This document shows positions 1 to 12,063 of a DNA stretch of 12,063 nucleotides, piece after piece. The stretch comes from Oscillospiraceae bacterium. GTDB lineage: Bacteria > Bacillota_A > Clostridia > Oscillospirales > WRJC01. Location of the stretch: NCBI GenBank assembly GCA_009785015.1, contig WQXD01000083.1:1-12063 (forward strand), in the 5' to 3' direction. A model generated the notes under the pieces. It was not told where the DNA came from. It did no database searches and worked only from the letters and a program-made list of their open reading frames with translations. A program made the translations under genes and the position numbers. Each line of letters opens with the position of its first letter. The stretch's first letter is position 1.

Positions 1-1
1 A

Positions 2-1150
2 ATAACCGCGATAAAAATAAGGCTCGGGCTCGTGATAGGTTTCGGCGCGCTGTTCGGGATCTTGAATCTCATCTGGTGGGCGGTGTTCGGGCTTGTCCCG
101 AACGGCGAATCGACGCCCAAAAGTTCGCTGCTTTTTATCGTTCCCGCGTACGCGATCGATTACAGCTGCATAGAAAGCGAAATCCCGGAAAAAGAAGATT
201 TTCCGGAAGATGCCGCCGAAGCAAAAGATACGGAACAGGAAGCGGAAATTGCCGAAATCGTCGCAAATTCCATAATTTTGAGGATCGGCAGCCCGAAAGC
301 TTTGGTAGGGGGCAGTCTCTGCCATATCGACGAAGAAAACAAATATCTCTCCCCGTTCATAGACGAAAACGACCGGACCCTTGTCCCCGTCAGGTTCATC
401 GCCGAAACTTTGGGGTTTGGCGTCGAATTCGACTTTGAAACGGATTCAAAAAAAATAATGATCGGCGGCGATACGGACGATATGATGACGGAAGCCCGGA
501 ATTTGCCGCTCGTGATGTATATCGGGGAAAATATCCTCGAAGCGGGCGAGCTTTTTATCGAAATGGATACCGCTCCCGTGCTGACTTTTGAAGGCCGCAC
601 TTTTATTCCGGCGAGGCCTTTTGCCGAAAGCCTTTCCATCAACGTTTTCTACGCGGAATCCGAGCGGGTCATAATAATCACGGATTTGGATATCGGCGAC
701 GCGGAGCCGGCCGCGAAAAAAGCGGCGGAGAGCCTGCCCGTCTGGCCGATAGACATGCTTAAAGTTTTGAAAGAATGGAAAAACTGGCCCGCGAACCCCG
801 ACGGGACATATCACGCGGGGGCGGATTTCGCCATCGCCGAGGGCAGCGGCGTATATGCGGCGCACAGCGGCGCCGTCGAGGATGTTTTGGATTTGGGCAA
901 TATCAGCTACGGAAAATACATAATCGTAAAATCCGTGATAGGCGGCAAGGCGCGGTATATATATTACGGCCATCTGAGCGAGCAATCGGTGAAAAAAGGC
1001 GACAACGTGAGAGCGGGGGACATAATAGGCAAGACGGGGAACACCGGCAACTCGACGGGGCCGCACCTGCACTTTGAAGTCCGGGACGAAAACAAGACCC
1101 ACGGCTCGGCGGCAAACCCGTCATTGGACCCGTACGATTATCTGCCTTAA
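2..1150 (+). CDS. Membrane-anchored M23 (LytM-like) peptidase with copper amine oxidase N-like domain, 5' partial
   Basis: Probable cell-wall hydrolase acting outside the membrane. The frame is open to the window edge, so the true start probably lies to the left. An in-frame GTG at 32 has no good ribosome site and would fall inside the hydrophobic segment. Numbering from that GTG, residues 1-20 plus the preceding KIRLG-type basic stretch look like a signal anchor. An acidic spacer (about 48-75) follows. About 80-220 resembles the copper amine oxidase N-terminal-like domain (phrases such as LVPVRFIAETLGFGVEF and FIPARPFAESL), a non-catalytic module common in clostridial surface proteins. Residues about 250-365 are an M23 peptidase domain with H261-AGA-D265 and H345-L-H347, matching the HxxxD and HxH zinc/catalytic motifs of lysostaphin/LytM enzymes, so it is probably active on peptidoglycan cross-links. 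It ends 36 nt before ychF with no evident terminator between them. Confidence 0.88.
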   Translation: MTAIKIRLGLVIGFGALFGILNLIWWAVFGLVPNGESTPKSSLLFIVPAYAIDYSCIESEIPEKEDFPEDAAEAKDTEQEAEIAEIVANSIILRIGSPKALVGGSLCHIDEENKYLSPFIDENDRTLVPVRFIAETLGFGVEFDFETDSKKIMIGGDTDDMMTEARNLPLVMYIGENILEAGELFIEMDTAPVLTFEGRTFIPARPFAESLSINVFYAESERVIIITDLDIGDAEPAAKKAAESLPVWPIDMLKVLKEWKNWPANPDGTYHAGADFAIAEGSGVYAAHSGAVEDVLDLGNISYGKYIIVKSVIGGKARYIYYGHLSEQSVKKGDNVRAGDIIGKTGNTGNSTGPHLHFEVRDENKTHGSAANPSLDPYDYLP

Positions 1151-1186
1151 AAATCAAAATAATAATAACGGAGGCGCGGCATATTT

Positions 1187-2290
1187 ATGAAACTCGGCAT
1201 AATAGGGCTCCCGAATGTGGGGAAAAGCACGCTTTTCAACGCCCTGACAAACACAAAGGCCGAAACGGCCAATTACCAGTTCAGCACGATAACCGCCAAT
1301 GTCGGCACGGTAAACGTGCCGGACGAAAGACTCGATTTTTTGACGAACTTGAACAAATCCCAAAAGACCGTCCCCGCCTTTATCGAATTTTCGGATATAG
1401 CCGGGCTCGTGCAGGGCGCTTCCAAGGGTGAAGGCCTCGGCAACAAATTTTTGGCGAGCATACGCGAAGTCGACGCAGTCGTCCATGTGGTGCGCTGTTT
1501 TGAGGACGAAAAAATAATACACATAAGCGACTCCATCGATCCCGTCCGCGACGTCGAAATCGTCAATATGGAACTGATCTACGCCGACATGGAACTCGCG
1601 GAACGGAGGGTCGAACGCGCAAAAAAAGCGATGAAGAGCGATAAATCCGCGGAAAAAGAGGCGAAGCTCTTCGAAGAGCTTTTGGACGTTTTAAACGAGG
1701 GCAAATCCGCGCGCTCCGTAAATTACACGCCGGAACAGCTGGCAATTCTGGAGACTTGTCCGCTTTTGTCGCGAAAAAAGATAATCTATGTGGCAAATGT
1801 GAGCGAGGACGACGCCGCCGGGATAGAAAACGGCGGAAGCGGGAGCGTATATTACCGTAAATTAAACGAATTGGCGAAATCCGAAAACGCCGAGATAATC
1901 CCGGTGTGCGCGAAAACGGAGGCAGAAATAAACGAACTTCCCGAAATTGAGCGAAAGGAATTTTTAAGAGAGCTCGGAATAAAAAAACCGGGGCTCGAAA
2001 AGCTGATACAGGCGAGCTACAGGCTGCTCGGGCTCATATCGTATCTGACCTCCGGCCCCAAGGAAACCAAGGCCTGGACGATAAAAAAGGGGGCAAAAGC
2101 CCCCGAAGCCGCCGGGAAAATACACAGCGACATTGAAAAAGGCTTTATCAGGGCCGAAACGGTGGCCTTTGCCGATCTGCATGAATGCGGCACGATGGCC
2201 GCCGCGAAAGAGAAGGGCGTCTTGCGCAGTGAGGGAAAGGAATACGTGGTCTCTGACGGCGATGTGATCTTGTTCCGGTTCAATGTGTGA
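1187..2290 (+). CDS. ychF: Redox-regulated ATPase YchF (Obg/OLA1 family)
   Basis: Cytoplasmic P-loop ATPase of the universally conserved YchF/OLA1 family, which binds ribosomes and is linked to translation and oxidative-stress responses. The 367-residue length is standard. Visible motifs are the P-loop G7-LPNVGKST (7-15), switch motif D70-IAG, and the glycine-rich LVQGASKGEGLGNKFL that follows it. N204-VSE replaces the usual NKxD, the known feature that shifts this family towards ATP. The C-terminal part carries a TGS domain (from about LISYLTSGPKETKAW to the end, with a DLHECGTMAAAKEKG-like stretch typical of YchF). The start is supported by GGAGG at 1170-1174, although the 12-nt spacing is a little long. 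This housekeeping gene sits immediately upstream of the dynamin block, with only 24 nt between its stop and the next start. Co-transcription is likely; a functional link need not follow. Confidence 0.97.
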   Translation: MKLGIIGLPNVGKSTLFNALTNTKAETANYQFSTITANVGTVNVPDERLDFLTNLNKSQKTVPAFIEFSDIAGLVQGASKGEGLGNKFLASIREVDAVVHVVRCFEDEKIIHISDSIDPVRDVEIVNMELIYADMELAERRVERAKKAMKSDKSAEKEAKLFEELLDVLNEGKSARSVNYTPEQLAILETCPLLSRKKIIYVANVSEDDAAGIENGGSGSVYYRKLNELAKSENAEIIPVCAKTEAEINELPEIERKEFLRELGIKKPGLEKLIQASYRLLGLISYLTSGPKETKAWTIKKGAKAPEAAGKIHSDIEKGFIRAETVAFADLHECGTMAAAKEKGVLRSEGKEYVVSDGDVILFRFNV

Positions 2291-2314
2291 TGATAAATGC
2301 GGAGATAAAAAATT

Positions 2315-4021
2315 ATGGATGAATTTGCAAATTTCAAAAATCTGGAATTTAAATTATACGAATGCCTCTCGCAGATCCGTTCCATGTGCGCCTCCAAGGA
2401 AATACCCGGCGTCCGCGAGCTTGACGATGTGCTCGAAAGGATTAAAACGCGGATTTTTTCGATTGCCGTCATGGGCGAATTCAAACGCGGCAAGAGCACC
2501 TTTATCAACGCTTTACTGGGGACGCGCCTGCTGCCCGCGGACGTCACGCCTACGACGGCGACCGTCAACCGGATTATTTACGGCGACGAACCCGGCGTCA
2601 CCATAAAATACAAAGACGGAAAAGAGACGCCGGTGGCCCTTTCCCAACTCTCGGAATACGTAACCAAGCTGACAGAAGAGGCCGAGCGCCGCGCGGCGGA
2701 AATCGAATCGGCGGTCATACGCTATCCGACCGCGCTTTGCGCGAACCATATTGAAATAATCGATACCCCGGGCCTCAACGACGACGCGGCGATGACCGAA
2801 GTATCAATGTCGGTAGCAAAGCGCGTTGACGCGGTTATTCTTGTGATCTCCGCCCTTTCGCCGTTCTCGGAATTGGAAACAATGTTCGCCGCCCGTCTTG
2901 TGGCCATGGAAAATATCGACGCGCTGTTTTTTGTCGTCAGTTTTATCGATCAGATCGATGAGCCTGAACGCGAACCGTTTCTCGAAAAGTTAAAAGGCCG
3001 GATTGTCAAAGCCTTGCATTCGGAGCTTGAACAGTCGGGGGCGCTCGACGCGAAGTCGGAAAAAATACTGGGCGATTTGAATTTGTGCGCGGTGAGTTCC
3101 ACGGCGGCATTGGACGCGCTGACGCGCGGCGACAACAGGCTGTTGAAAAAAAGCAATTTGGAAACCCTGAAAACAAACCTTTTTCAATTTCTTACGGCTT
3201 CACAGGGTTATTCGCTGATACAAAAATCGCGCGCGGCAGCATCCAAGTATTGCGCTTTGCTCAATTCGGCAAATTCAAAAACGGCCGAAAAGCTCGAAGT
3301 CAGATCCGAATGGTTTAAAACAGCCGGAGCGCGGCTGATTTTTTACCGGGATCAGGGAGAGGCGGAATTTCGCGGGCTCCGCGGGCGGTTCGACGATATC
3401 AGCAGCGGCATTGTCCAGAAAATCAACCGGGAAAAAAACGCGTGCGCGAAACGCTGCATGGGGGTTATGGGCGGCATGGAAGCGTTTGACGAATTTTGCC
3501 GTTTTACGGATTTTACGATTTCAGAGAGCGAAACAATCAACAGCGGCCTGACAGCTGAACTCATATCCTCGGTAAAAGAGTCAATGCGTTCGGTTTCTGA
3601 AGATTTCAACAGTTTGGCGAGGGGCATAGTCGACGAGGTTCTGTCGGCGAACTTTGAAGCATCCGGCAAAAAACTGCGTTCGCTTGGTTGCTTTTCAGCT
3701 GATTTCGATATAACGCGCGCCGTTTGGCCGCCCGGTTTCAAATGGATGGCGGATGAAAGCGCTCCGCCGGGTCAGATGGCATGGTTGGCCAAGATAAACG
3801 CGAGTTTTAGGGCGTTTGTGGAAAACTGGACAAAATACATAGACGAATTATTCGGTATGTGGGAAAACTGGATCGGCATCGAACAAAGCCGCGTTGTCCG
3901 GCCTCTGCTCGGCGAACTCGAAAAAACGCATATGACGCATAACGCCCAAAAAAACCTGATGTTAAAATCGTTGGAAAAAGAACGCGCCAAATTGGACGAA
4001 ATCCAAAAAATAATCGATTGA
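2315..4021 (+). CDS. Dynamin-like GTPase A
   Basis: Large GTPase of the bacterial dynamin-like protein group, expected to act at membranes. Its 568 residues contain a short N-terminal helix, then a GTPase domain with P-loop G54-EFKRGKST-62, a G2 region with PTTAT (79-83) and G3 D150-TPG-153. The G4 site reads S209-FID rather than (N/T)(K/R)xD, so base specificity may be altered. The rest is predominantly helical, as in dynamin stalks. I see no long hydrophobic membrane segment. A tryptophan-rich stretch, six Trp between residues 471 and 519, could instead be an amphipathic contact surface. The GTPase half is closely related to GTPase B just downstream: residues 48-157 align without gaps to B 53-162 with about 62 identities by hand count, implying local gene duplication. 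GGAG at 2301-2304 supports the start; the next gene begins 22 nt downstream. Physiological role unknown. Confidence 0.93.
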   Translation: MDEFANFKNLEFKLYECLSQIRSMCASKEIPGVRELDDVLERIKTRIFSIAVMGEFKRGKSTFINALLGTRLLPADVTPTTATVNRIIYGDEPGVTIKYKDGKETPVALSQLSEYVTKLTEEAERRAAEIESAVIRYPTALCANHIEIIDTPGLNDDAAMTEVSMSVAKRVDAVILVISALSPFSELETMFAARLVAMENIDALFFVVSFIDQIDEPEREPFLEKLKGRIVKALHSELEQSGALDAKSEKILGDLNLCAVSSTAALDALTRGDNRLLKKSNLETLKTNLFQFLTASQGYSLIQKSRAAASKYCALLNSANSKTAEKLEVRSEWFKTAGARLIFYRDQGEAEFRGLRGRFDDISSGIVQKINREKNACAKRCMGVMGGMEAFDEFCRFTDFTISESETINSGLTAELISSVKESMRSVSEDFNSLARGIVDEVLSANFEASGKKLRSLGCFSADFDITRAVWPPGFKWMADESAPPGQMAWLAKINASFRAFVENWTKYIDELFGMWENWIGIEQSRVVRPLLGELEKTHMTHNAQKNLMLKSLEKERAKLDEIQKIID

Positions 4022-4043
4022 AAATAATTATGGGAGGAAAATC

Positions 4044-6104
4044 ATGAAAAACAAAATCAGCGGATTCGGCGATTATCGGAAGCTTGTGATCGATGTATGT
4101 TCGTATCTCGGCAAACTGAAAGAGTTCTGCGATGAATTGGGATTGGATAACAGCGGTCAGGTGATCAGCGAAGTTCTCGAGCGTGTTTCAAACCAGGCGT
4201 TTTCGATTGCGATAGTGGGCGAGTTCAAGCGCGGCAAAAGCACGCTGATAAACGCCCTGCTCGGACAAGATGTCCTTCCGACCGATATTCTGCCGTGTTC
4301 GGCGACGCTGAACCGTATAACTTACGGCATCGCGCCTTCGGTCGAGGTCCGATTCAAAGACGGAAATATCGACAGAGTCGATATCAACCGGCTCACCGAC
4401 TACGTGACCAAACTCACGCCCGAGGCCGAACAGCTTTCGGCAAACGTCTCGGAAGCGACTGTCTACTATCCGGTAAATTACTGCATGAACAATGTCGATA
4501 TCATCGATACTCCGGGCCTCAACGACGACAAAAATATGACCGATGTGACATTATCGGTGCTGCCTCGCTCAGACGCCGCGATCATGACGATTATGGCTAC
4601 GTCGCCGTTTTCCGATTATGAACGCGACTTTTTGGAAAACAAATTGCTCACCAGCGATATGGGGCGCGTATTGTTCGTCGTCACCCGCATTGACAGTTTT
4701 GACGACGAAGACGATGTCCAAAAAGTGCTCGCCTCCATCACCGGCCGTATCGAAAAATACACGATGGACAAAGCCGCCAAAACCTATGGAGCCGATTCTC
4801 CCGAGTATGCCGTATTCAAGCGCAAAATCGGCAAACCCAAGGTGTACGGCATATCGGCGAAACAAGCGGTCAAGGGAAAACTCACGGGCAACAATGACCT
4901 GCTGGAACGCAGCCGTTTTCCGGATTTTGAAAAAGCCCTTGAAAATTTCCTCACGGAAGAGCGCGGCTCGGTTCTGCTTCAGGTCCCCTTGAACCGCGCC
5001 GTTTCGGGCGCGGCTGAAATATTAAAAACGATCGAATTGCGCGAGAACGCGCTTTCGATGAAAAAAGAAGAATTTGAGGCGAAACACGCCGAGGCGCTGG
5101 CGGAGCTTGAGAATGTGCGCGTAAAAAAACGCGCGGAACTCAACCGCCTGACGGATTCCGCAGAGGCGAGTTTTCAAAATATGCAGCCGCTGCTCGACAA
5201 TTTCTGGGGAGAAGTGTCCGACACAGCCGAGGCGGTTGTTTACAATTCCCCAATAACCGACGACGATATCAAAAAAGACCGCGCAGAGGCGACCCAGCAG
5301 CGGTTAGCCGAAGAGATTTCCCGCGCGGTATCGATAAAAGCGCAGGAATTCACCGAACGGGTGCAGGTCGAAATCGAACGGAATGTCGCAGCGGATGTCG
5401 GCAAATCAGGCGCGTTCGCGCAGTATCTCTCCGAATCGCTGGGGAATATACATCATATGTTCGCCGGCGGCGGCAATGTGATCCAAACAAAGGATATGGC
5501 GATAGGCGGCGCGCTTTCATGGCTCGGAGGATTCGGCATCGGCGGCGCGTATATGGGATTCAAGCAAGGGGGCTGGAAAGGCGCGCTTGCCGGCGGCGCT
5601 GCGGGCGTTGCGGGAGCTGTAGGGGCGAGTGTCGGTATTGCCGCGATTGCGGGCGCTGTGGGTCTGACCATCGCCGGACCGGCGCTTTTGGTGGCGGGCG
5701 CCATTACGGCGGTCGCCTCGGTGTTTTCATCCAAATTCGTTTTGAAAAAATTCTTCAATAACAACGCAGTTCCGAAATTCCGCGAATCATTTGCCGAAGC
5801 GGTTCGCAGCCAGATCGGCGAATTCCGCAAAAACGGGGATTTCATCGAACAGATACGCTCGCAGGTATTCGGAGCTTACGGGCAAATCAAAGAGAACGTC
5901 GAGCGCGACACCGAAACCGTACTGCGCGACACCGAACAGACTCTGTCGTCAATCAAAGAACAGCTCACCGCCGACAAAGTCGCAAGCGAACACGAAAAAG
6001 AACGCTTGCTGGCTATGGCGGCCGAGTGCCGCGCGATAATCGACGAAGCCCAACGTCTGAACAATATGCTCATACCCGAAGAAAACGAGGAGGAGACGCT
6101 TTGA
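4044..6104 (+). CDS. Dynamin-like GTPase B with hydrophobic membrane-insertion segment
   Basis: Dynamin-superfamily GTPase of 686 residues, close in length to cyanobacterial BDLP. It has all main nucleotide-binding motifs: P-loop G59-EFKRGKST-67, G2 PCSAT (84-88), G3 D155-TPG-158 and G4 T214-RID-217. A long helical, coiled-coil-prone region (about 328-380) follows. Residues about 485-565 are a Gly/Ala-rich hydrophobic segment (phrases such as LAGGAAGVAGAVG and LTIAGPALLVAGAITAV), consistent with the bilayer-inserting paddle of BDLP/mitofusin-type proteins. The C-terminus (about 600-685) is again helical and charged, fitting the return strand of the stalk. It is the only one of the three GTPases here with an obvious membrane-insertion element, and so is the likeliest membrane anchor of a joint complex. 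GGGAGG at 4032-4037 supports the start. Its TGA stop overlaps the peptidase start (TGATG), suggesting translational coupling. Confidence 0.95.
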   Translation: MKNKISGFGDYRKLVIDVCSYLGKLKEFCDELGLDNSGQVISEVLERVSNQAFSIAIVGEFKRGKSTLINALLGQDVLPTDILPCSATLNRITYGIAPSVEVRFKDGNIDRVDINRLTDYVTKLTPEAEQLSANVSEATVYYPVNYCMNNVDIIDTPGLNDDKNMTDVTLSVLPRSDAAIMTIMATSPFSDYERDFLENKLLTSDMGRVLFVVTRIDSFDDEDDVQKVLASITGRIEKYTMDKAAKTYGADSPEYAVFKRKIGKPKVYGISAKQAVKGKLTGNNDLLERSRFPDFEKALENFLTEERGSVLLQVPLNRAVSGAAEILKTIELRENALSMKKEEFEAKHAEALAELENVRVKKRAELNRLTDSAEASFQNMQPLLDNFWGEVSDTAEAVVYNSPITDDDIKKDRAEATQQRLAEEISRAVSIKAQEFTERVQVEIERNVAADVGKSGAFAQYLSESLGNIHHMFAGGGNVIQTKDMAIGGALSWLGGFGIGGAYMGFKQGGWKGALAGGAAGVAGAVGASVGIAAIAGAVGLTIAGPALLVAGAITAVASVFSSKFVLKKFFNNNAVPKFRESFAEAVRSQIGEFRKNGDFIEQIRSQVFGAYGQIKENVERDTETVLRDTEQTLSSIKEQLTADKVASEHEKERLLAMAAECRAIIDEAQRLNNMLIPEENEEETL
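6089..6095 (+). promoter_or_regulatory. Ribosome binding site that fixes the M48 peptidase start
   Basis: GGAGGAG lies 8 nt before the ATG at 6104, inside the last codons of GTPase B. It supports that start over the longer in-frame GTG at 6026, which lies deep inside GTPase B, would add 26 non-conserved residues and has no comparable site. Confidence 0.8.
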
Positions 6105-7102
6105 TGATGGATCCGGTAAATCCGAACCCGACCGACGCGGTGGATATAAGCCTGCAAAAATATATTTCGGCGCGCGAGAAAACCTCGCGGGCGCATATGG
6201 AAAAAGGCGTGCCCGATTACGCGTTTGATCTCGACATTGAAATGCGGCGAAAAATAGACGCCATACCGTTCATGTACAAATTTTTCGAATATATCATGAA
6301 AACTCATATGCCGAAGATCCGTCAGCAGCTGAATCTCGACTGCATACTCACCGGTCCGAACCAATATCCGGAAATCTACGAAATGGGTGAGGAATGCGCC
6401 CGGCGCCTCGGCATCGGGATTCCGAAGATGTATGTCAAATATGACCCGTATATGAACGCATCCGCTCACGCATTTGACGATTCGGAGCCCATTATCGTAC
6501 TGCACACCAGTTTGATAGACGCGATGACGCCCGGCGAATTGAAAATGATCATCGGTCACGAGTGCGGACACATACACAACAACCATATGACATACAAACA
6601 GGCCGGCGAGATCATACTCGCAGTCACAGCGGGCGCCGCGAAAGCGATCGTTCCCGGATTGCGGCCCTTTATAACCTTGTTTACCTCCGGGGTGCGGGTG
6701 CTGTTCCAGGATTGGTCGCGCTGCGCGGAAATAACATGCGACCGGGCGGGAATCATAAACGCCGATAACGCCCTTGAGGCGATCATGGCGCAGGCGAAGA
6801 TAAAAACAGGAGGAATAGAGGCCTTAAACGGCATAAACCTCGACGAGTATGTGCGCCAGATCGACGATTCGCAATCGACGCCCGGACGTCTTCTCGAAAT
6901 TCTCAATACGCATCCCGCATCGCAGAAGCGGATACTCGCCGGCAAATTGTTCTCGCAGTGCGAAATTCTGTATAAATGGCGGCCCGAGTGGAAAACCCCG
7001 GACATGGTTGTTTTGCCTAAATCGCTGACTGACAAGAAGTGCCGTGAATTTATTTCGGTATTTCGCAGCGCGAAAAAATCCGATAAGGGGGCGAAAATAT
7101 GA
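6104..7102 (+). CDS. M48-family zinc metallopeptidase
   Basis: Predicted zinc-dependent endopeptidase of the M48 (HtpX/Ste24/OMA1-like) family, 332 residues from the ATG at 6104 (a second ATG at 6107 is equally possible). The zinc site is intact: H152-ECG-H156 with catalytic E153, and the downstream glutamate E209 in a CAEITCDRAG context, with D213 in the position of the usual M48 E..(A/C)D motif. Between them, about residues 165-200 are moderately hydrophobic (AVTAGAAKAIVPGLRPFITLF) and could be membrane-associated, though this is weaker than the clear transmembrane helices of HtpX. The rest is charged, so the protein may be cytosolic or peripheral. It is coupled at both ends, by TGATG with GTPase B and ATGA with GTPase C. 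That placement suggests the GTPases or their partners as substrates, but this is inferred. It could instead be a general quality-control protease. Confidence 0.92.
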   Translation: MMDPVNPNPTDAVDISLQKYISAREKTSRAHMEKGVPDYAFDLDIEMRRKIDAIPFMYKFFEYIMKTHMPKIRQQLNLDCILTGPNQYPEIYEMGEECARRLGIGIPKMYVKYDPYMNASAHAFDDSEPIIVLHTSLIDAMTPGELKMIIGHECGHIHNNHMTYKQAGEIILAVTAGAAKAIVPGLRPFITLFTSGVRVLFQDWSRCAEITCDRAGIINADNALEAIMAQAKIKTGGIEALNGINLDEYVRQIDDSQSTPGRLLEILNTHPASQKRILAGKLFSQCEILYKWRPEWKTPDMVVLPKSLTDKKCREFISVFRSAKKSDKGAKI

Positions 7103-8877
7103 ATGGCGGCAATGAAGAACGTTTTTACGAGGAACGGCTGGTCGCGGACGCCGAGGCGACGCAAAAGGCGCTGACTGAGGCACTCGACGAATTGGATGTC
7201 ATACGTTCAGGCGCCGCCGCGCGAGGTGTCATGGGAGCGGAGTTTTCCGAGTGGCTGCGCAAGGCCTCCGCAGATATAAAGCACAGGCAAAACGATACAT
7301 TCAATATAGTGGTGGTCGGCGATTTCAAACGCGGCAAATCCACGCTCGTCAACGCGCTGCTCGGCGAGGATGCGGTGCATGCCGGCGCCACGCCCGAGAC
7401 GGCCACCTTGAACCGCATAACATGGGACAAAGAGCGCTCAATTGAAGCAGTCCTCAAAAACAAGCGCAAAGTCACGCTTTCCCGCGACGAATTGAAACGC
7501 GAAAATCTTGAAAAAATTATGCCGAATCTGCCTTCGCCGATCGGATATATAGATATAAAAATCCCGCTGGAAATTTTAAAAGATGTGCGCGTTGTGGATA
7601 CCCCGGGCATCGGCGATCTGTTGAAACAGTTTGACAATTTGGTGCGGGATTATATCCTGTTTGCCGACGCGGTGATTTATGTCGTCTCCGCGCTGTCGCC
7701 GTTGTCGGAAACCGAGCAGGCGTTTTTGTGCGCGGCGATCCTGCCTCAAAATGTGTCAAAATTGTTTGTAGTCATAAATATGTGCGACTGCCTCGACGAC
7801 GAAAGCGAAGTAGAGAGGATCACCGCGTTGATAAGAGAGCGCACAGAGCGCATCTTCACCCAAAGCTATATCTATCCGGTCAGCGCGCTCGACGAGGTGT
7901 GCCGCCTCAAGAATTTGCAGCGTCCCAACAAAAAGCTCGAACATATGCTGGGTGCGTCGTTTGACGAACTGCGAACTTCAATCAATTCGCAAATACTCGA
8001 CTGCCGGGATATAATACAGGTTGACCGGCTCAGTTCCATGCTGCGCCGGCTTTTCGCGGAGATGGAGGCCAAAATCGCCATGCTGGAATCCGCGCTGGAA
8101 ATCGAAGCGGGAAACTACTCGAAGATTTTGGGGGACTATGAAAACCAAAACTCCGACCTTGTCCGTGAAATTGAAGCCCATAAAACGCGGATCCATGTCG
8201 CCGTGTCCGATATGCGCCGCGAAGCGGAAGGCTGGATGTCCGCCTTTATGGAACGCATGAAAGGCGAGGTACAGAAGGCGAATGTATTTAAATTGGAACA
8301 GCTTGAAAAGCATTTCCATTTCTATTTCATAGACATGGTGCGCGAAGCGCTGATGCAGTGCGCCCAAACGCACTCCCGCAAGGTTTCCGAAATGATGGAT
8401 GAAAGCATACAGGCGCTGTGGGATACCGCCGCTCAAAAGTCGCTGAACCGCAAAATCGCGTCGGTTTCGTCCGGTATAAAATGGACTTCCTTCGACAGCG
8501 TTATGATGGGAGCGGCCACCGCAGGCGAGGCGCTGCCGGACTTGGGGCTGCTGACTTTGATAGGGCAAGCCGCCCTCGGATTCGCGAAATCAAAAGGCGC
8601 CCCGAAACGCACGGACGTCTATACGGAAAATATCCTCGGAAATTACCCGCAAATCACCGGACAGGTTTTGCCGCAAGTGGAAAAGATATACGCGGATTTC
8701 AACGGATACGTCGATTCGCAGCTGGAGGAATCCTATCAAAAGAGGCTTGATGAGTCGGTAAACGCCATCAAACAGGCTCAGGACATCTCAAAGCGCAGCG
8801 GCGCCGAACGCGACGAGGCGCTCGCGGCGCTTGAGCAGCTGAAATCCGAAGTAAAACGTCTTTCAGAATTATTTTAG
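7099..8877 (+). CDS. Dynamin-like GTPase C
   Basis: Third dynamin-like GTPase, 592 residues, more divergent than A and B. The nucleotide site is well kept: P-loop G74-DFKRGKST-82, a TPETAT G2-like stretch, G3 D167-TPG-170 followed by IGD, and a G4-like N227-MCD-230. After the GTPase domain come a coiled-coil-prone helix (about 315-365), a further helical region, and a short moderately hydrophobic segment (about 468-498, containing LGLLTLIGQAALGFA) that could be a reduced paddle. A charged coiled coil (about 541-592) closes the protein. The start overlaps the peptidase stop as ATGA, with a G-rich ribosome site at 7087-7091. Coupled synthesis with the peptidase and proximity to A and B suggest one complex or pathway, as with paired bacterial dynamin-like proteins. 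The cellular role is not known from sequence. Confidence 0.93.
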   Translation: MNGGNEERFYEERLVADAEATQKALTEALDELDVIRSGAAARGVMGAEFSEWLRKASADIKHRQNDTFNIVVVGDFKRGKSTLVNALLGEDAVHAGATPETATLNRITWDKERSIEAVLKNKRKVTLSRDELKRENLEKIMPNLPSPIGYIDIKIPLEILKDVRVVDTPGIGDLLKQFDNLVRDYILFADAVIYVVSALSPLSETEQAFLCAAILPQNVSKLFVVINMCDCLDDESEVERITALIRERTERIFTQSYIYPVSALDEVCRLKNLQRPNKKLEHMLGASFDELRTSINSQILDCRDIIQVDRLSSMLRRLFAEMEAKIAMLESALEIEAGNYSKILGDYENQNSDLVREIEAHKTRIHVAVSDMRREAEGWMSAFMERMKGEVQKANVFKLEQLEKHFHFYFIDMVREALMQCAQTHSRKVSEMMDESIQALWDTAAQKSLNRKIASVSSGIKWTSFDSVMMGAATAGEALPDLGLLTLIGQAALGFAKSKGAPKRTDVYTENILGNYPQITGQVLPQVEKIYADFNGYVDSQLEESYQKRLDESVNAIKQAQDISKRSGAERDEALAALEQLKSEVKRLSELF

Positions 8878-8892
8878 CGGAGGTGGTGGCCG

Positions 8893-9480
8893 ATGATGAT
8901 ATGCAAAAAATGCAAAGCCGAAATGCCTGACGATACATATTTCTGCGAAAAGTGCGGCGAGCTGATGTATGGACAGGACGGCGAAGCCGCCGATGTGAAG
9001 AGCGAGGGCAAATATTGTCATTCATGCGGCGATAAATTGAGTCCCGCGGCGGTTTTTTGCCCCAAATGCGGAACAAAACAGGAGCCCGGTAACGCGCTTG
9101 CCGCTCCGGGTATGAATGACGCGCCGCAGCCGCAGCTTGCTCCCGCGGCTTTTGCCGACTCCTCAAATAACAAATTGGGTGAATTCAATGTCTCGATAAA
9201 CAGCGTTTCCTCCATAAGAAAACTGATCGGCGTCACGAACATGGGCAAATTGTCGGTTTTTAACAACCGCCTCGAATTCAAGCCGGGCGCGCTCAATGTG
9301 TTCGACACGGTTATTACCATACCGGCAAGTGAAATTACCGCAGTCAATATTGTCAGTGTTTATGGCTTTCAAAACGGCGTCCAGGTTGTTTTGCGTTCGG
9401 GCCAGGAACATATTTTTATACCTACCGTATGGGAAAGGGACCGGCTGATCGAATTGATCCGCTCTCAGCTAAGCGGATGA
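8893..9480 (+). CDS. Double zinc-ribbon protein with possible PH-like C-terminal domain
   Basis: Small protein of 195 residues. Two zinc ribbons are clear: C4/C7 with C18/C21, and C42/C45 with C56/C59, each a CxxC pair followed by CxxCG. A Pro/Ala-rich linker (about 62-90) leads to a C-terminal domain (about 95-195) of alternating beta-strand character ending in an amphipathic helix (WERDRLIELIRSQL). That pattern suits a PH/GRAM-like fold, but I assign it only by pattern. Such proteins are usually adaptors; membrane or protein binding by the C-terminal part is an inference. GGAGG at 8879-8883 precedes the start by 9 nt, and a second ATG follows directly at 8896. It lies 15 nt after GTPase C and most likely belongs to the same operon, perhaps linking the GTPases to a partner. 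No enzymatic motif is seen. Confidence 0.85.
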   Translation: MMICKKCKAEMPDDTYFCEKCGELMYGQDGEAADVKSEGKYCHSCGDKLSPAAVFCPKCGTKQEPGNALAAPGMNDAPQPQLAPAAFADSSNNKLGEFNVSINSVSSIRKLIGVTNMGKLSVFNNRLEFKPGALNVFDTVITIPASEITAVNIVSVYGFQNGVQVVLRSGQEHIFIPTVWERDRLIELIRSQLSG

Positions 9481-9506
9481 AACATTTTGACAAATTTGCC
9501 AAATAT

Positions 9507-9512
9507 AAGGAG
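9507..9512 (+). promoter_or_regulatory. Ribosome binding site that decides the Uma2 start
   Basis: AAGGAG lies 6 nt before the ATG at 9519. It favours this start over in-frame ATGs at 9429 (inside the zinc-ribbon gene) and 9477. The 9477 ATG overlaps the previous stop as ATGA and could still serve as a coupled alternative start adding 14 residues. Confidence 0.75.
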
Positions 9513-9518
9513 AAAAAC

Positions 9519-10214
9519 ATGGATAATTTGGCCCGGCAGAAAAGATACACCTATGCGGATTATTTGACGTGGAAGGGCGATGTCCGTTATGAGATTATAG
9601 ACGGTACAGCCTACGCGATGGCGGGCCCGTCACAAGCGCATCAGAGAATAACCAAGAAATTAGTCAGGCAGTTCGACGATTTTTTGAGGGGCAAAACTTG
9701 CGAAGTATTTCATGCCCCCCTTGATGTGCGCCTTAATGCAAACAGTTTTGACGATGTTGTGGTACAGCCCGATATATTCGTAGTGTGCGAACAATCAAAA
9801 CATAGCGGAAGAAGCGTCAGGGGCGCGCCGGATTTGATAATTGAAATATTATCGCCGTATAATGCGCGCCATGATACATTTATAAAATTCCGGCAGTATC
9901 AAAAGGCGGGGGTAAAAGAATACTGGATAGCCGACCCCATACGCAGGACTGTCGAAGTATATATACTGCAAAACGGAAAATATGGAGTAGGCAGCGTTTA
10001 CAGAGATGATGACGTTGTCCCGGTCCATATTTTAGAGGGGTGTAAAATAAATTTGGCCGAAGTATTCTATGACAGCATTGAGCCGGAAGAAGATGATGAA
10101 TCGGAAATAAGAAACAATATAATCCGGGCGTTAAAGGCGAGCGGCGTAAACATGAGCGACGAGCAGGTGGAGAAAGCCGTTAAAATTTTGGAATCCGGCC
10201 AAAATATTTTTTAG
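9519..10214 (+). CDS. Uma2-family (DUF820) PD-(D/E)XK nuclease-like protein
   Basis: Predicted restriction-endonuclease-fold protein of the Uma2 family, 231 residues. Family hallmarks run in order: YTYADYLTW near the N-terminus, Y24-EIIDG, a QAHQRI stretch, VVQPD85IFVV, PDLIIE109ILSP, D119 and K123, then AGVKEYWIADP (130-140). D85 and E109 fit the acidic metal-binding positions of the PD-(D/E)XK core. Uma2 proteins are very abundant in cyanobacteria and also found in Bacillota and Chloroflexota. Their biological substrate is poorly known, so nuclease activity is predicted, not certain. The C-terminal tail (about 188-231) is acidic and then helical. It lies 38 nt after the zinc-ribbon gene and may be the last gene of the operon or an unrelated insertion, since Uma2 genes occur in many contexts. 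Its TAG stop overlaps the stop of the convergent acetamidase gene. Confidence 0.92.
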   Translation: MDNLARQKRYTYADYLTWKGDVRYEIIDGTAYAMAGPSQAHQRITKKLVRQFDDFLRGKTCEVFHAPLDVRLNANSFDDVVVQPDIFVVCEQSKHSGRSVRGAPDLIIEILSPYNARHDTFIKFRQYQKAGVKEYWIADPIRRTVEVYILQNGKYGVGSVYRDDDVVPVHILEGCKINLAEVFYDSIEPEEDDESEIRNNIIRALKASGVNMSDEQVEKAVKILESGQNIF

Positions 10215-11095
10215 AAATCTCGTATAACTTCCTTTTTTATCTCCATGCGCATGGTTTTTTGCGGGTTCACGATTTGGCATACCCGCAAATCGCCGTAAAG
10301 GGCGATAGCGAGCGCGGCATCGGCAGGCTTTTGGCCGTGGTATGTTTCGAGTATGTAACGCATATCCGAAATTGCCAGCTCGCTCGCCTTTTCCATTGTT
10401 TCGGCGGACGCCGCGGTCGAAATGATTTCTTTTGACATCACCAGAGGCCTGTGTATCTTCATATTTTTGTTCACTCTCACGGTGATATCGACTTCGGCGC
10501 AAATTTCAACGCCCTGGCCGAACACCTCGCCGTCGCCCATAATTCCGTGAATATCTCCGATGCCGAAGAGCGCCCCTTCGACAAACACGGGCAAATATAC
10601 CGTGGCCCCTGCGGTTACGGCGTTGTTGTCCATGTTGCCGCCGTGGTCGCCCGCTTCCACGGTGAGCCCCGAGTGCCCTTTGAAATTTTCAAAATGATCG
10701 GCGACGCCGATGACGCCGATCATAGGTCTCGCAGGCAGTATTTTGTCATTATGCAATATATGCAAACTGCCGCCGGACAGCGCCTCAACTTCGATATACT
10801 CCCGTCCGCTGCGGCTCGGAACGTTTAAAAATCCCCTGCCGGCCAATTTGATATCGTGTATTTCGATTTCAAGCGTATCTTCCGGCATCGCCTCCTTTAC
10901 ATAGATGGGGCCGGTCGCGGGATTTGCGTGCGATATGACGTATTCCCTCGTCAATTTACCGTCGCGGTCGTCAGCGGATCTGCCAAATAAAGCGTCAAGG
11001 GTTTCCAATGTCAGCCTGCCGCCCGACGAAATTTCGGCGCACGGCTGGATTTCCGGAATAAACCGGTTATATATTTTATCTCTTGTTATTCTCAT
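10211..11095 (-). CDS. Acetamidase/formamidase family protein
   Basis: Predicted cytoplasmic amidohydrolase releasing ammonia from formamide, acetamide or related short amides; the true substrate cannot be read from sequence. The 294-residue length is normal for the compact bacterial form. Typical motifs are NPATGPIYV (58-66) followed by an acidic EAMPEDTLEIEI stretch, D150-HGGNMD (150-156), and GDIHGIMGDGE (179-189), which supply the conserved metal/active-site residues of the family. The start at 11095 is chosen because AAGGAG on the - strand (11102-11107) lies 6 nt before it and the family-like sequence begins MRITRDK. An in-frame ATG further upstream at 11179 lies inside the preceding gene. 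It follows the propeller-like gene by 16 nt, so the two probably form one operon. Its TAA stop overlaps the Uma2 stop. Confidence 0.95.
   Translation of the reverse strand: MRITRDKIYNRFIPEIQPCAEISSGGRLTLETLDALFGRSADDRDGKLTREYVISHANPATGPIYVKEAMPEDTLEIEIHDIKLAGRGFLNVPSRSGREYIEVEALSGGSLHILHNDKILPARPMIGVIGVADHFENFKGHSGLTVEAGDHGGNMDNNAVTAGATVYLPVFVEGALFGIGDIHGIMGDGEVFGQGVEICAEVDITVRVNKNMKIHRPLVMSKEIISTAASAETMEKASELAISDMRYILETYHGQKPADAALAIALYGDLRVCQIVNPQKTMRMEIKKEVIRDF
10243..10260 (+). terminator. Weak candidate intrinsic terminator after the + strand block
   Basis: A perfect 12-base palindrome (10243-10254) is followed by six T. It could form a very short hairpin 28 nt past the Uma2 stop. The stem is at most 4-5 bp, and the palindrome results from Met-Arg-Met codons of the acetamidase on the other strand, so it may be coincidence. 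No better terminator is visible between the convergent genes. Confidence 0.2.
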
Positions 11096-11101
11096 GATCG
11101 G

Positions 11102-11107
11102 CTCCTT
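11102..11107 (-). promoter_or_regulatory. Ribosome binding site of the acetamidase gene
   Basis: Read on the - strand this is AAGGAG, 6 nt upstream of the ATG at 11095. It sits in the 16-nt gap after the propeller-like gene, in a run of A residues, and fixes the start against the longer reading from 11179. Confidence 0.8.
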
Positions 11108-11111
11108 TTTT

Positions 11112-12063
11112 TTAATCGAAAATAAACTCGCCCCTGTAGTTTGAATAGTTGTATTCCTGATACCGTTTCCTGCCGCCAAACGCCAATTTCGACGGATTGT
11201 CCTCCTGGGTGTATATATACATCATCCCCTCGTTCCAGCATAGGATTTCTTCGCGTTCGTCTCCGAATAGATCGGCCGCGTCGCAGCATAACTCGGGGTG
11301 CCCGTCGTTTGGAAACTCCACGACGCGATCGCCGCAGCCGTCATACAGCCCGCCGAATTTCGAACTCGCGGAATAGAGCGCGAGTATTTTGCCGTCCGCG
11401 CTCCAGGATACGGGGGTTATAATGTTGCCGTTTGCCCACGGCTCAAATGAAAACAGCTTGTTTCCCCTGCAGTCATAATAGGCGACAATACCCGTATTGC
11501 GCCAGAAAGTAGTCACGCATATTTCAAGCCCCGGCAATTCGGGGCAATAATTCGCGACGCTTACTCTCTGCGCGTGCCCGAGTTTATCCTGCGCGATTAT
11601 GAATCCGTTTTGATCCGCGAGTATAAATCCGTCCTCGCCGGAAGCGAGGGCGATTTGATATTTTTTGTTTCCGGGGTCGAATCTGCCTATCACTATTTCG
11701 TCGACATGGCAGTCCATGCCCGGCAGCTCCCAGATCAATTTGCCGTCTGCGTCAAAAAGCGAATGGCCCGCCAGGAGTTCGTCCCTGCCGTCGCCGTTTA
11801 TATCAAAGGCATACGGAAAATGCCCGCAGTTTACATATCGGTGCCACAATAACCCGAAATTTTCGTCATAGGCCCAAATGTTGTTATACCTGTCTTTGAC
11901 CAATATATCGGAAGGGCGCCTTTTGCCGGAAAAATTGCATATCCTGATACTGTCAGCCACGATTCTATCGAGAATTGTATTCTGATATATCTTATACCTG
12001 TCGTGTTTTACCGATTTCGGCGCAGGGACACAATATTTTGTCATCCCGGTTGACGCGTCCGCC
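11112..12063 (-). CDS. Beta-propeller-like (FG-GAP/VCBS-type repeat) protein, 5' partial
   Basis: Function not recognised. The visible part (310 residues from an in-frame ATG at 12044) consists of successive beta-rich repeats of the kind FDINGDGRDELLAGHSLFDADGKLIWEL. They include a calcium-binding-like DINGDGRDE (81-89) and related strands at DEIVIGRFDPGN, SVANYCPELPGLEI, VSWSADGKILALY and AADLFGDEREEIL. This suits a propeller of about 6-8 blades. The repeat style recalls the propeller of family 11 rhamnogalacturonan lyases, but I do not see enough to call an enzyme. The frame stays open to the right edge and the ATG at 12044 has no ribosome site, so the gene probably begins outside the window. 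Secretion therefore cannot be judged. It is followed after 16 nt by the acetamidase gene, suggesting co-transcription; whether they share a pathway is unclear. Confidence 0.75.
   Translation of the reverse strand, partial: ADASTGMTKYCVPAPKSVKHDRYKIYQNTILDRIVADSIRICNFSGKRRPSDILVKDRYNNIWAYDENFGLLWHRYVNCGHFPYAFDINGDGRDELLAGHSLFDADGKLIWELPGMDCHVDEIVIGRFDPGNKKYQIALASGEDGFILADQNGFIIAQDKLGHAQRVSVANYCPELPGLEICVTTFWRNTGIVAYYDCRGNKLFSFEPWANGNIITPVSWSADGKILALYSASSKFGGLYDGCGDRVVEFPNDGHPELCCDAADLFGDEREEILCWNEGMMYIYTQEDNPSKLAFGGRKRYQEYNYSNYRGEFIFD

Follow-up and report, generated by a model that had tools for sequence, protein, structure and literature searches.

Organization of the gene block

Contig WQXD01000083.1 of an Oscillospiraceae bacterium (assembly GCA_009785015.1) was analyzed over positions 1 to 12,063 of its forward strand; this whole stretch of 12,063 nucleotides is called the window. 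Positions 2,315 to 9,480 contain a block of five co-directional open reading frames (ORFs), which encode three dynamin-like proteins (A, B and C), an M48 zinc metallopeptidase between B and C, and a double zinc-ribbon protein after C (Table 1). This composition, with intact P-loops and with gaps of at most 22 nt or overlaps between the genes, had been proposed in a sequence-only reading of the window, and is borne out by the ORFs, Pfam matches, motifs and coordinates. A and B are separated by 22 nt, B and the M48 gene overlap by 1 nt, the M48 gene and C overlap by 4 nt, and 15 nt lie between C and the zinc-ribbon gene. The M48 gene starts with an ATG at 6104 that is preceded by AGGAGG.

Table 1. 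Features of the five-gene block, in window coordinates
Feature	Positions	Strand	Remarks
Dynamin-like protein A	2315–4021	+	568 aa; without hydrophobic paddle; from ORF and Pfam
Motifs of A	2474–2497; 2762–2773; 2939–2950	+	P-loop; DTPG; G4 SFID
Dynamin-like protein B	4044–6104	+	686 aa; similar to bacterial dynamin-like protein (BDLP), hydrophobic paddle; P-loop 4218–4241
Glycine/alanine-rich hydrophobic paddle of B	5505–5756	+	residues 488–571; maximum KD19 2.14 at residue 532
M48 zinc metallopeptidase	6104–7102	+	332 aa; HECGH 6557–6571; third-ligand region EITCDR 6728–6745
Dynamin-like protein C	7099–8877	+	592 aa; paddle weak or absent; P-loop 7318–7341; G4 NMCD 7777–7788
Double zinc-ribbon/PH-like protein	8893–9480	+	195 aa
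Two zinc ribbons	8902–9069	+	Cys 4/7/18/21 and 42/45/56/59
Predicted PH-like domain	9172–9471	+	residues 94–193; AlphaFold2 secondary structure and Foldseek

Linkage of the M48 peptidase to dynamins

Related loci were collected with the M48 peptidase alone, using two peptide patterns typical of its subfamily and one genome per species; dynamins were not presupposed. The patterns matched 205 stretches, 185 of which encode relatives, and all counts for loci L001 to L080 refer to the best 80 of these 185. A dynamin lies on the strand of the M48 gene at a distance of at most 476 nt in 79 of the 80 loci, and of at most 100 nt in 72. In four loci (L057, L061, L072 and L077), the M48 ORF is overlapped by a longer dynamin ORF in the operon map, and both genes are present. 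A whole-genome search without the patterns also found a dynamin beside the M48 gene in 10/10 loci (L081 to L090, two of them from seed genomes). Among other M48 genes, taken from ten of the 16 seed genomes, a dynamin was nearby in none of 20 control loci; these are 20 distinct places that score 28 to 136 bits, viewed with flanks of about 4 kb wherever the contig was long enough (L095 is truncated by the end of its contig). The reverse test gave the same association. In a sample of 291 genomes of one class, with up to four candidates scored per genome, C-type dynamins (483 to 767 bits) occurred in three genomes, seed included, and these are the same three that carry the M48 gene. The match ends of M48 and C are 11 to 63 nt apart there. 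Altogether, 10/291 genomes match C at 1e-30, the seven others with dynamins of at most 153 bits.

The gene order is conserved as well. C lies downstream of the M48 gene in 42/42 cases, B upstream in 51/53 and A upstream in 26/27. The gap between B and M48 has a median of 12 nt (at most 100 nt in 42/44), and that between M48 and C has a median of -4 nt (at most 100 nt in 40/42). Both B and C flank the M48 gene in 38 loci besides the window, and by their record titles these loci come from six phyla: 25 from Bacillota, 7 from Cyanobacteriota, 3 from Pseudomonadota, and one each from Actinomycetota, Chloroflexota and Fibrobacterota. In the myxobacterial group, the M48 gene stands beside a single dynamin as an M48-dynamin pair. 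In the 47 loci outside this group, dynamin ORFs longer than 200 aa number three in 34 loci, four in 2 and fewer in 11, several of which lie on short contigs. Twenty-six loci, counting the window, have all four genes. Across them, M48 has a median identity of 0.43, B of 0.36, C of 0.32 and A of 0.28; the four proteins correlate in their pairwise identities at 0.84 to 0.93, as joint inheritance would predict. The A-B-M48-C-zinc-ribbon block is a conserved module and not a chance arrangement. The multi-component unit of conserved order that the sequence-only reading had anticipated is supported by the linkage and by the 38 B-M48-C loci; the components are not found mostly apart, and the order is not confined to a single genome.

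As a separate observation, a gene upstream of the myxobacterial-type M48 recurs in one cluster of seven loci (L051, L052, L054, L060, L063, L073 and L076), and its member in L076 has an FHA domain.

Properties of the dynamins and the peptidase

All three window dynamins match Dynamin_N above the Pfam cut-off (A, 1.1e-29; B, 8.5e-28; C, 1.6e-22). Their P-loops read GEFKRGKS in A and B and GDFKRGKS in C, and each has the DTPG motif. The canonical G4 motif (N/T)KxD is absent from all three, which carry SFID, TRID and NMCD, respectively; this departure is not mentioned in the sequence-only reading. The G4 Lys is kept in 7/27 A, 10/53 B-clade and 2/42 C dynamins and in 31/31 of the myxobacterial type, and the G4 Asp is invariant in all dynamins of these four groups examined in the tree. 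Membership in the dynamin superfamily was retained despite the G4 motifs, because the whole GTPase domain scores above the cut-off and the Lys varies within these clades.

A dynamin tree of 155 sequences (FastTree), which has long branches and an uneven composition, contains clades of A (27 rows), B (52 to 53 rows) and C (42 rows) with starred support. Beside C stands a group of 31 dynamins, mostly from Myxococcota; the locus titles name Myxococcota for 26 and Pseudomonadota for 2, and 3 are without phylum. The A, B and C labels of the first locus maps were best-hit labels, and the tree moves the myxobacterial-type dynamins into a clade of their own. The A clade comprises 24 dynamins from Bacillota, one from Actinomycetota, one from Fibrobacterota and that of the window; it does not include the third dynamins found in cyanobacteria and proteobacteria.

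B matches the BDLP of Nostoc (2j68) at 4e-30 and reaches 25.3 bits with the bacterial helical stalk domain PF21808, under the cut-off of 28.3; A and C are not listed for this domain. Hydropathy also sets B apart in the window. Its KD19 maximum is 2.14, compared with 0.48 for A and 1.41 for C beyond residue 300. In all 44 loci whose B directly precedes the M48 gene and is in the tree, B has a paddle; over the whole B clade the count is 46/53, and the seven rows without one are extra copies that do not adjoin M48. Elsewhere, the paddle is found in 0/27 A dynamins, in 5/42 C dynamins and in 31/31 of the single dynamins of the myxobacterial type. This distribution suggests that, where three dynamins exist, one is membrane-inserting and the others are soluble partners. 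Membrane remodelling by the module is supported indirectly, through the homology of B to the Nostoc BDLP and its predicted hydrophobic paddle.

The window peptidase matches Peptidase_M48 at 3.7e-19 (69.7 bits against a cut-off of 20.3) and contains the catalytic HECGH motif and the downstream Glu ligand in EITCDR. HExxH is present in 81/81 M48 ORFs of the loci, and the downstream E...DR in 80/81. By hydropathy, the window protein has no N-terminal membrane helix. It does not reach the NCBIfam cut-offs for HtpX (M48B), for which the best score among the models listed is 41.7 bits against 285.

Zinc-ribbon proteins

The zinc-ribbon protein of the window matches Zn_Ribbon_1 and DZR in Pfam, and GRAM only at 0.015, under its cut-off. 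In an alignment of 15 rows, C42, C45, C56 and C59 are invariant, and C4, C7, C18 and C21 are conserved in at least 90%. An AlphaFold2 model built with 15 sequences has a mean pLDDT of 74.3 overall. Its C-terminal part is modelled as seven strands and a C-terminal helix, with ten-residue blocks at 74 to 94 and one at 62, and Foldseek matches this domain to PH-type domains. The model thus supports the PH-like character that had been guessed from the sequence.

By a motif test, a co-directional ORF of the zinc-ribbon type lies near the core genes in 26/47 loci outside the myxobacterial group; in Bacillota the count is 23/32. L030 is counted here, with an ORF that is probably the detached end of a dynamin. 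The other halves of these proteins vary, and include PH-like domains (15 aligned), CD225, Band_7, FHA and hydrophobic segments. In cyanobacteria, the zinc ribbon is fused to the C-terminus of an upstream dynamin (L006, L012, L018 and L028; the fused ORFs are short in L006, with 523 aa, and in L012, with 486 aa), and in the Chloroflexota locus L037 it is fused to the N-terminus of B. In nine Bacillota loci (L001, L002, L007, L010, L013, L014, L015, L019 and L046), a separate zinc-ribbon gene stands between A and B. The strongest indication that zinc ribbons and dynamins act together comes from these fusions and the equivalent operon positions.

The frequency of zinc ribbons was also compared between neighbors of the module and of control M48 genes. 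The scan covered a random draw of 110 of the 289 ORFs of L001 to L047 (150 to 1499 aa, core genes excluded) and all 94 control ORFs, 17 of which are M48 genes; the ten genomes behind the control loci are, by title, mostly cyanobacterial, myxobacterial and proteobacterial, so that these loci are not matched in lineage to the Bacillota loci. Zn_Ribbon_1 was found in 17/110 neighbor ORFs and 3/94 control ORFs (p = 0.004; p = 0.015 against 3/77 without the control M48 genes), and the difference for DZR was not significant (10/110 and 4/94, p = 0.27). This frequency test is weak evidence, and the claim is carried by the fusions and operon positions instead.

Several individual proteins of this kind were recorded. 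Between dynamins A and B, L001:7477-7896 encodes a small protein whose start is zinc-ribbon-like and which has a CD225 (IFITM-type) domain; L002:7462-7869 resembles it by eye. In L037, of Chloroflexota, a Band_7/SPFH-zinc-ribbon protein (5645-6781) and a zinc-ribbon-FHA protein (6794-7579) lie upstream of B-M48-C.

Distribution and genomic neighborhood

At E values up to 1e-50, the M48 was found in 3/291 genomes from the class of the Herbinix seed (seed included), in 1/194 from the phylum of the Fischerella seed, which is the seed itself, and in 33/140 from the phylum of the Polyangium seed (seed included). The distribution is uneven, which bears on the patchiness that the sequence-only reading had proposed to look for. 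The patchiness in the Clostridia-type and cyanobacterial samples suggests horizontal movement, and the M48-dynamin pair in the phylum of the Polyangium seed may be inherited vertically. The loci nearest to the window among the best 80 of 185 belong to Bacillota. Fischerella thermalis PCC 7521 carries L030, and Clostridium formicaceticum has homologues of M48, A and C, each on a contig of 4,586,755 bases. One occurrence of the module is in a contig of a metagenome-assembled genome labelled Klebsiella pneumoniae (L042; the label is unverified and quoted as given).

Mobile elements gave few matches. Among 72,556 plasmid records, nine had partial M48 matches that cover 21 to 65% of the query, and none had a match with at least 80% coverage. 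In the one plasmid locus that was opened, from Thermus, no dynamin lies within 5 kb of the partial M48 match. One of 50,697 phage records matched (L091, MT836781.1). This record, MT836781, is an unannotated and unverified 8.8 kb faecal contig named 'Bacteriophage sp.' with dynamin-M48-dynamin; the label may be wrong, and it was not counted as a phage carrier. The viral contigs gave a single match, weak and partial.

In PADLOC-DB 2.0.0, no named system covers the block; the M48 is unmatched, the zinc-ribbon protein matches at E 0.04 and weaker, and the window dynamins have partial LeoA/LeoBC matches and, for C, a weak mad8 match. NCBIfam likewise has no named system for these five genes, and its LeoA/HP0731 cut-off of 325 bits is not reached by A, B or C (24.0, 28.6 and 24.5 bits). 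The set had not been recognized as a named system in the sequence-only reading, and these databases agree. In the neighbor and control scans, no recurring defence system appeared among the first 25 PADLOC families of each, and no family had more than four members among the neighbors. The top neighbor families are largely kinase models, which also match 1/94 control ORFs. The difference between the family totals (130 for neighbors and 42 for controls) is at least partly due to a few kinases that match many similar models. Pkinase (4), AAA_21 (4) and GT4-conflict (2) occur among the 110 neighbor ORFs, and neighbors of conflict type are found in one or two loci each, namely kinase-LRR (L032 and L036), kinase-NACHT (L040) and SLATT/SLOG (L002). 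A location in defence islands, for which nearness to known defence genes would have spoken, was set aside, since no clear signal relative to the control M48 loci emerged from the first 25 families listed for either set of ORFs. Two of these neighbors are noted individually: the kinase-NACHT protein at L040:8344-12138 and the SLOG/SLATT-type protein at L002:13292-15022, the latter with a weak match.

In the window, ychF ends 24 nt before A, and an M23 peptidase with a copper amine oxidase N-terminal domain is encoded upstream of ychF (32-1150). A gene for a putative nuclease of the Uma2 family follows the block after 38 nt; it has a probable start at 9519, its own ribosome-binding-like site, and extends to 10214, and the longer ORF that starts at 9429 matches PDC-S03 in PADLOC. 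On the minus strand lie a gene of the acetamidase/formamidase family (10211-11179) and an overlapping ORF (11112-12044) with weak FG-GAP and rhamnogalacturonan-lyase-like matches.

Discussion

This study found a conserved gene module in which an M48 subfamily is genetically bound to dynamins. The module is interpreted, with a probability of about 50%, as a membrane-remodelling unit that consists of a hetero-oligomeric dynamin machine with its own regulatory M48 peptidase, like OMA1-OPA1 in its logic. B, of the BDLP type and with a hydrophobic paddle, would be the membrane-inserting subunit that tubulates or tethers the membrane. A and C would be paddle-less GTPase partners that co-assemble with B, as has been proposed for bacterial pairs (PMC6104087). 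The M48 may process or remove one dynamin from the cytosolic side and thereby switch the machine, in the way that OMA1 acts on OPA1. Because the M48 gene is tied to C, often by overlapping frames, C or a B-C complex is the first candidate substrate. The zinc-ribbon/PH-like protein could be an adaptor that connects the assembly with a partner, either lipid or protein, and the trigger may be membrane stress. One locus speaks against the linkage pattern or lies outside it: in L063, a contig of 3.2 kb and the exception among the 80 loci, no dynamin was found even at E values up to 10. A bolder version can be offered tentatively. In it, the module would be a bacterial switch of the OMA1-OPA1 kind that arose or persists outside mitochondria, in which a dedicated M48, tied to a C-type dynamin across phyla, cuts its dynamin partner when the zinc-ribbon/PH-like adaptor reports membrane damage; the myxobacterial M48-dynamin pair would be its minimal form.

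Other roles were considered. The peptidase may be a general quality-control enzyme in the operon, one that removes misfolded membrane proteins around the dynamin assembly without regulating the dynamins themselves. The enzyme BepA, which also has a quality-control role, shares the fold class of the module M48, as does HtpX, which has been described as a protease for the quality control of membrane proteins (PMC6510439). However, the dynamin linkage is specific to the subfamily (79/80 loci, and 0/20 when other M48 genes from the same genomes are taken), and in the myxobacterial group, too, the M48 adjoins a dynamin, here a single one; such a function is considered unlikely. Alternatively, the genes may form a housekeeping trait for membrane shaping or compartments, such as envelope architecture or vesicles, with a peptidase whose one-time task is the maturation of a subunit and which plays no part in stress. 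The higher frequency in the myxobacterial sample (33/140) and the joint divergence of the genes would fit this, but the strong patchiness in the Clostridia-type and cyanobacterial samples is unusual for an architectural trait, and this explanation appears very improbable.

A defence module against phages or bacteriocins, in which dynamins seal or isolate phage-damaged membrane and the peptidase is effector or trigger, would account for the scarcity in two of the three sampled groups (3/291 and 1/194, seeds included) and for the spread across several phyla. The Uma2 gene (PDC-S03) behind the block, the partial LeoA/LeoBC profile matches, the kinase-LRR, kinase-NACHT and SLATT/SLOG neighbors, and the Pkinase, AAA_21 and GT4-conflict matches point the same way. 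Against it, the first 25 families of the neighbor scan include no recognized defence system that recurs, the occurrence in 33/140 genomes of the myxobacterial sample is more like a lineage trait there, full-length plasmid matches were absent from the records searched, and the viral match is single, weak and partial. A defence role seems improbable but is still a serious alternative, given the patchy distribution and the conflict-type neighbors in one or two loci each. The sequence-only reading had left the choice between membrane remodelling and defence open; its remodelling half has gained the indirect support of the BDLP homology and paddle of B, and its defence half found none in the neighbor scans or in the plasmid and viral searches.

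No description of an M48-dynamin module was found in the open-access literature of PubMed Central (PMC; judged by titles and abstract starts). Dynamin operons themselves are already known; new here is a bacterial dynamin operon that extends to three dynamin lineages and includes a bound peptidase and candidate zinc-ribbon adaptors. To our knowledge, how bacterial dynamins are switched is largely an open question, and an M48 subfamily genetically bound to them offers a concrete handle on it. The zinc-ribbon proteins beside or fused to dynamins point to a class of adaptors for which no description was found.

Among known systems, the closest likeness of the dynamins is to the Nostoc punctiforme BDLP (2j68) and to PDB 5owv, which we take to be Campylobacter Cj-DLP1/2; B and C of the window match both by sequence. 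Bacterial dynamin-like proteins are mostly pairs encoded side by side in operons, as in the module, and the Campylobacter dynamin operon includes an HcpA-like beta-lactamase, with no peptidase described in the available part of that source (PMC6104087). The module differs from the BDLP and from such pairs in its three dynamin lineages, the interposed M48 and the recurrent zinc-ribbon proteins. LeoABC (LeoA, 4aur) also brings several dynamin genes together and has partial profile matches with the module dynamins, but these score only 24 to 29 bits with the NCBIfam LeoA model against its cut-off of 325, and we know of no M48 or zinc-ribbon partner in LeoABC. The module M48 shares its catalytic core and fold with HtpX, BepA and ZMPSTE24. 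HtpX has an N-terminal membrane helix, whereas the module M48 lacks one by hydropathy and stays under the HtpX model cut-offs. OMA1 is itself an M48 peptidase, and the mitochondrial OMA1-OPA1 system resembles the module in joining a metallopeptidase and a dynamin-related GTPase, a union that is known in the module as genetic linkage only (79/80, and 0/20 in controls). The differences are that the module M48 has no N-terminal membrane helix by hydropathy, and that the hydrophobic segment of B comes late in the sequence, in contrast to the N-terminal anchor of OPA1. Cleavage of OPA1 by OMA1 is a stress response (PMC6056715); for the module, cleavage of a dynamin is what we infer. Should the M48 indeed cut a dynamin, the control of dynamins by proteases would not be peculiar to mitochondria, and bacteria would offer a model for it.

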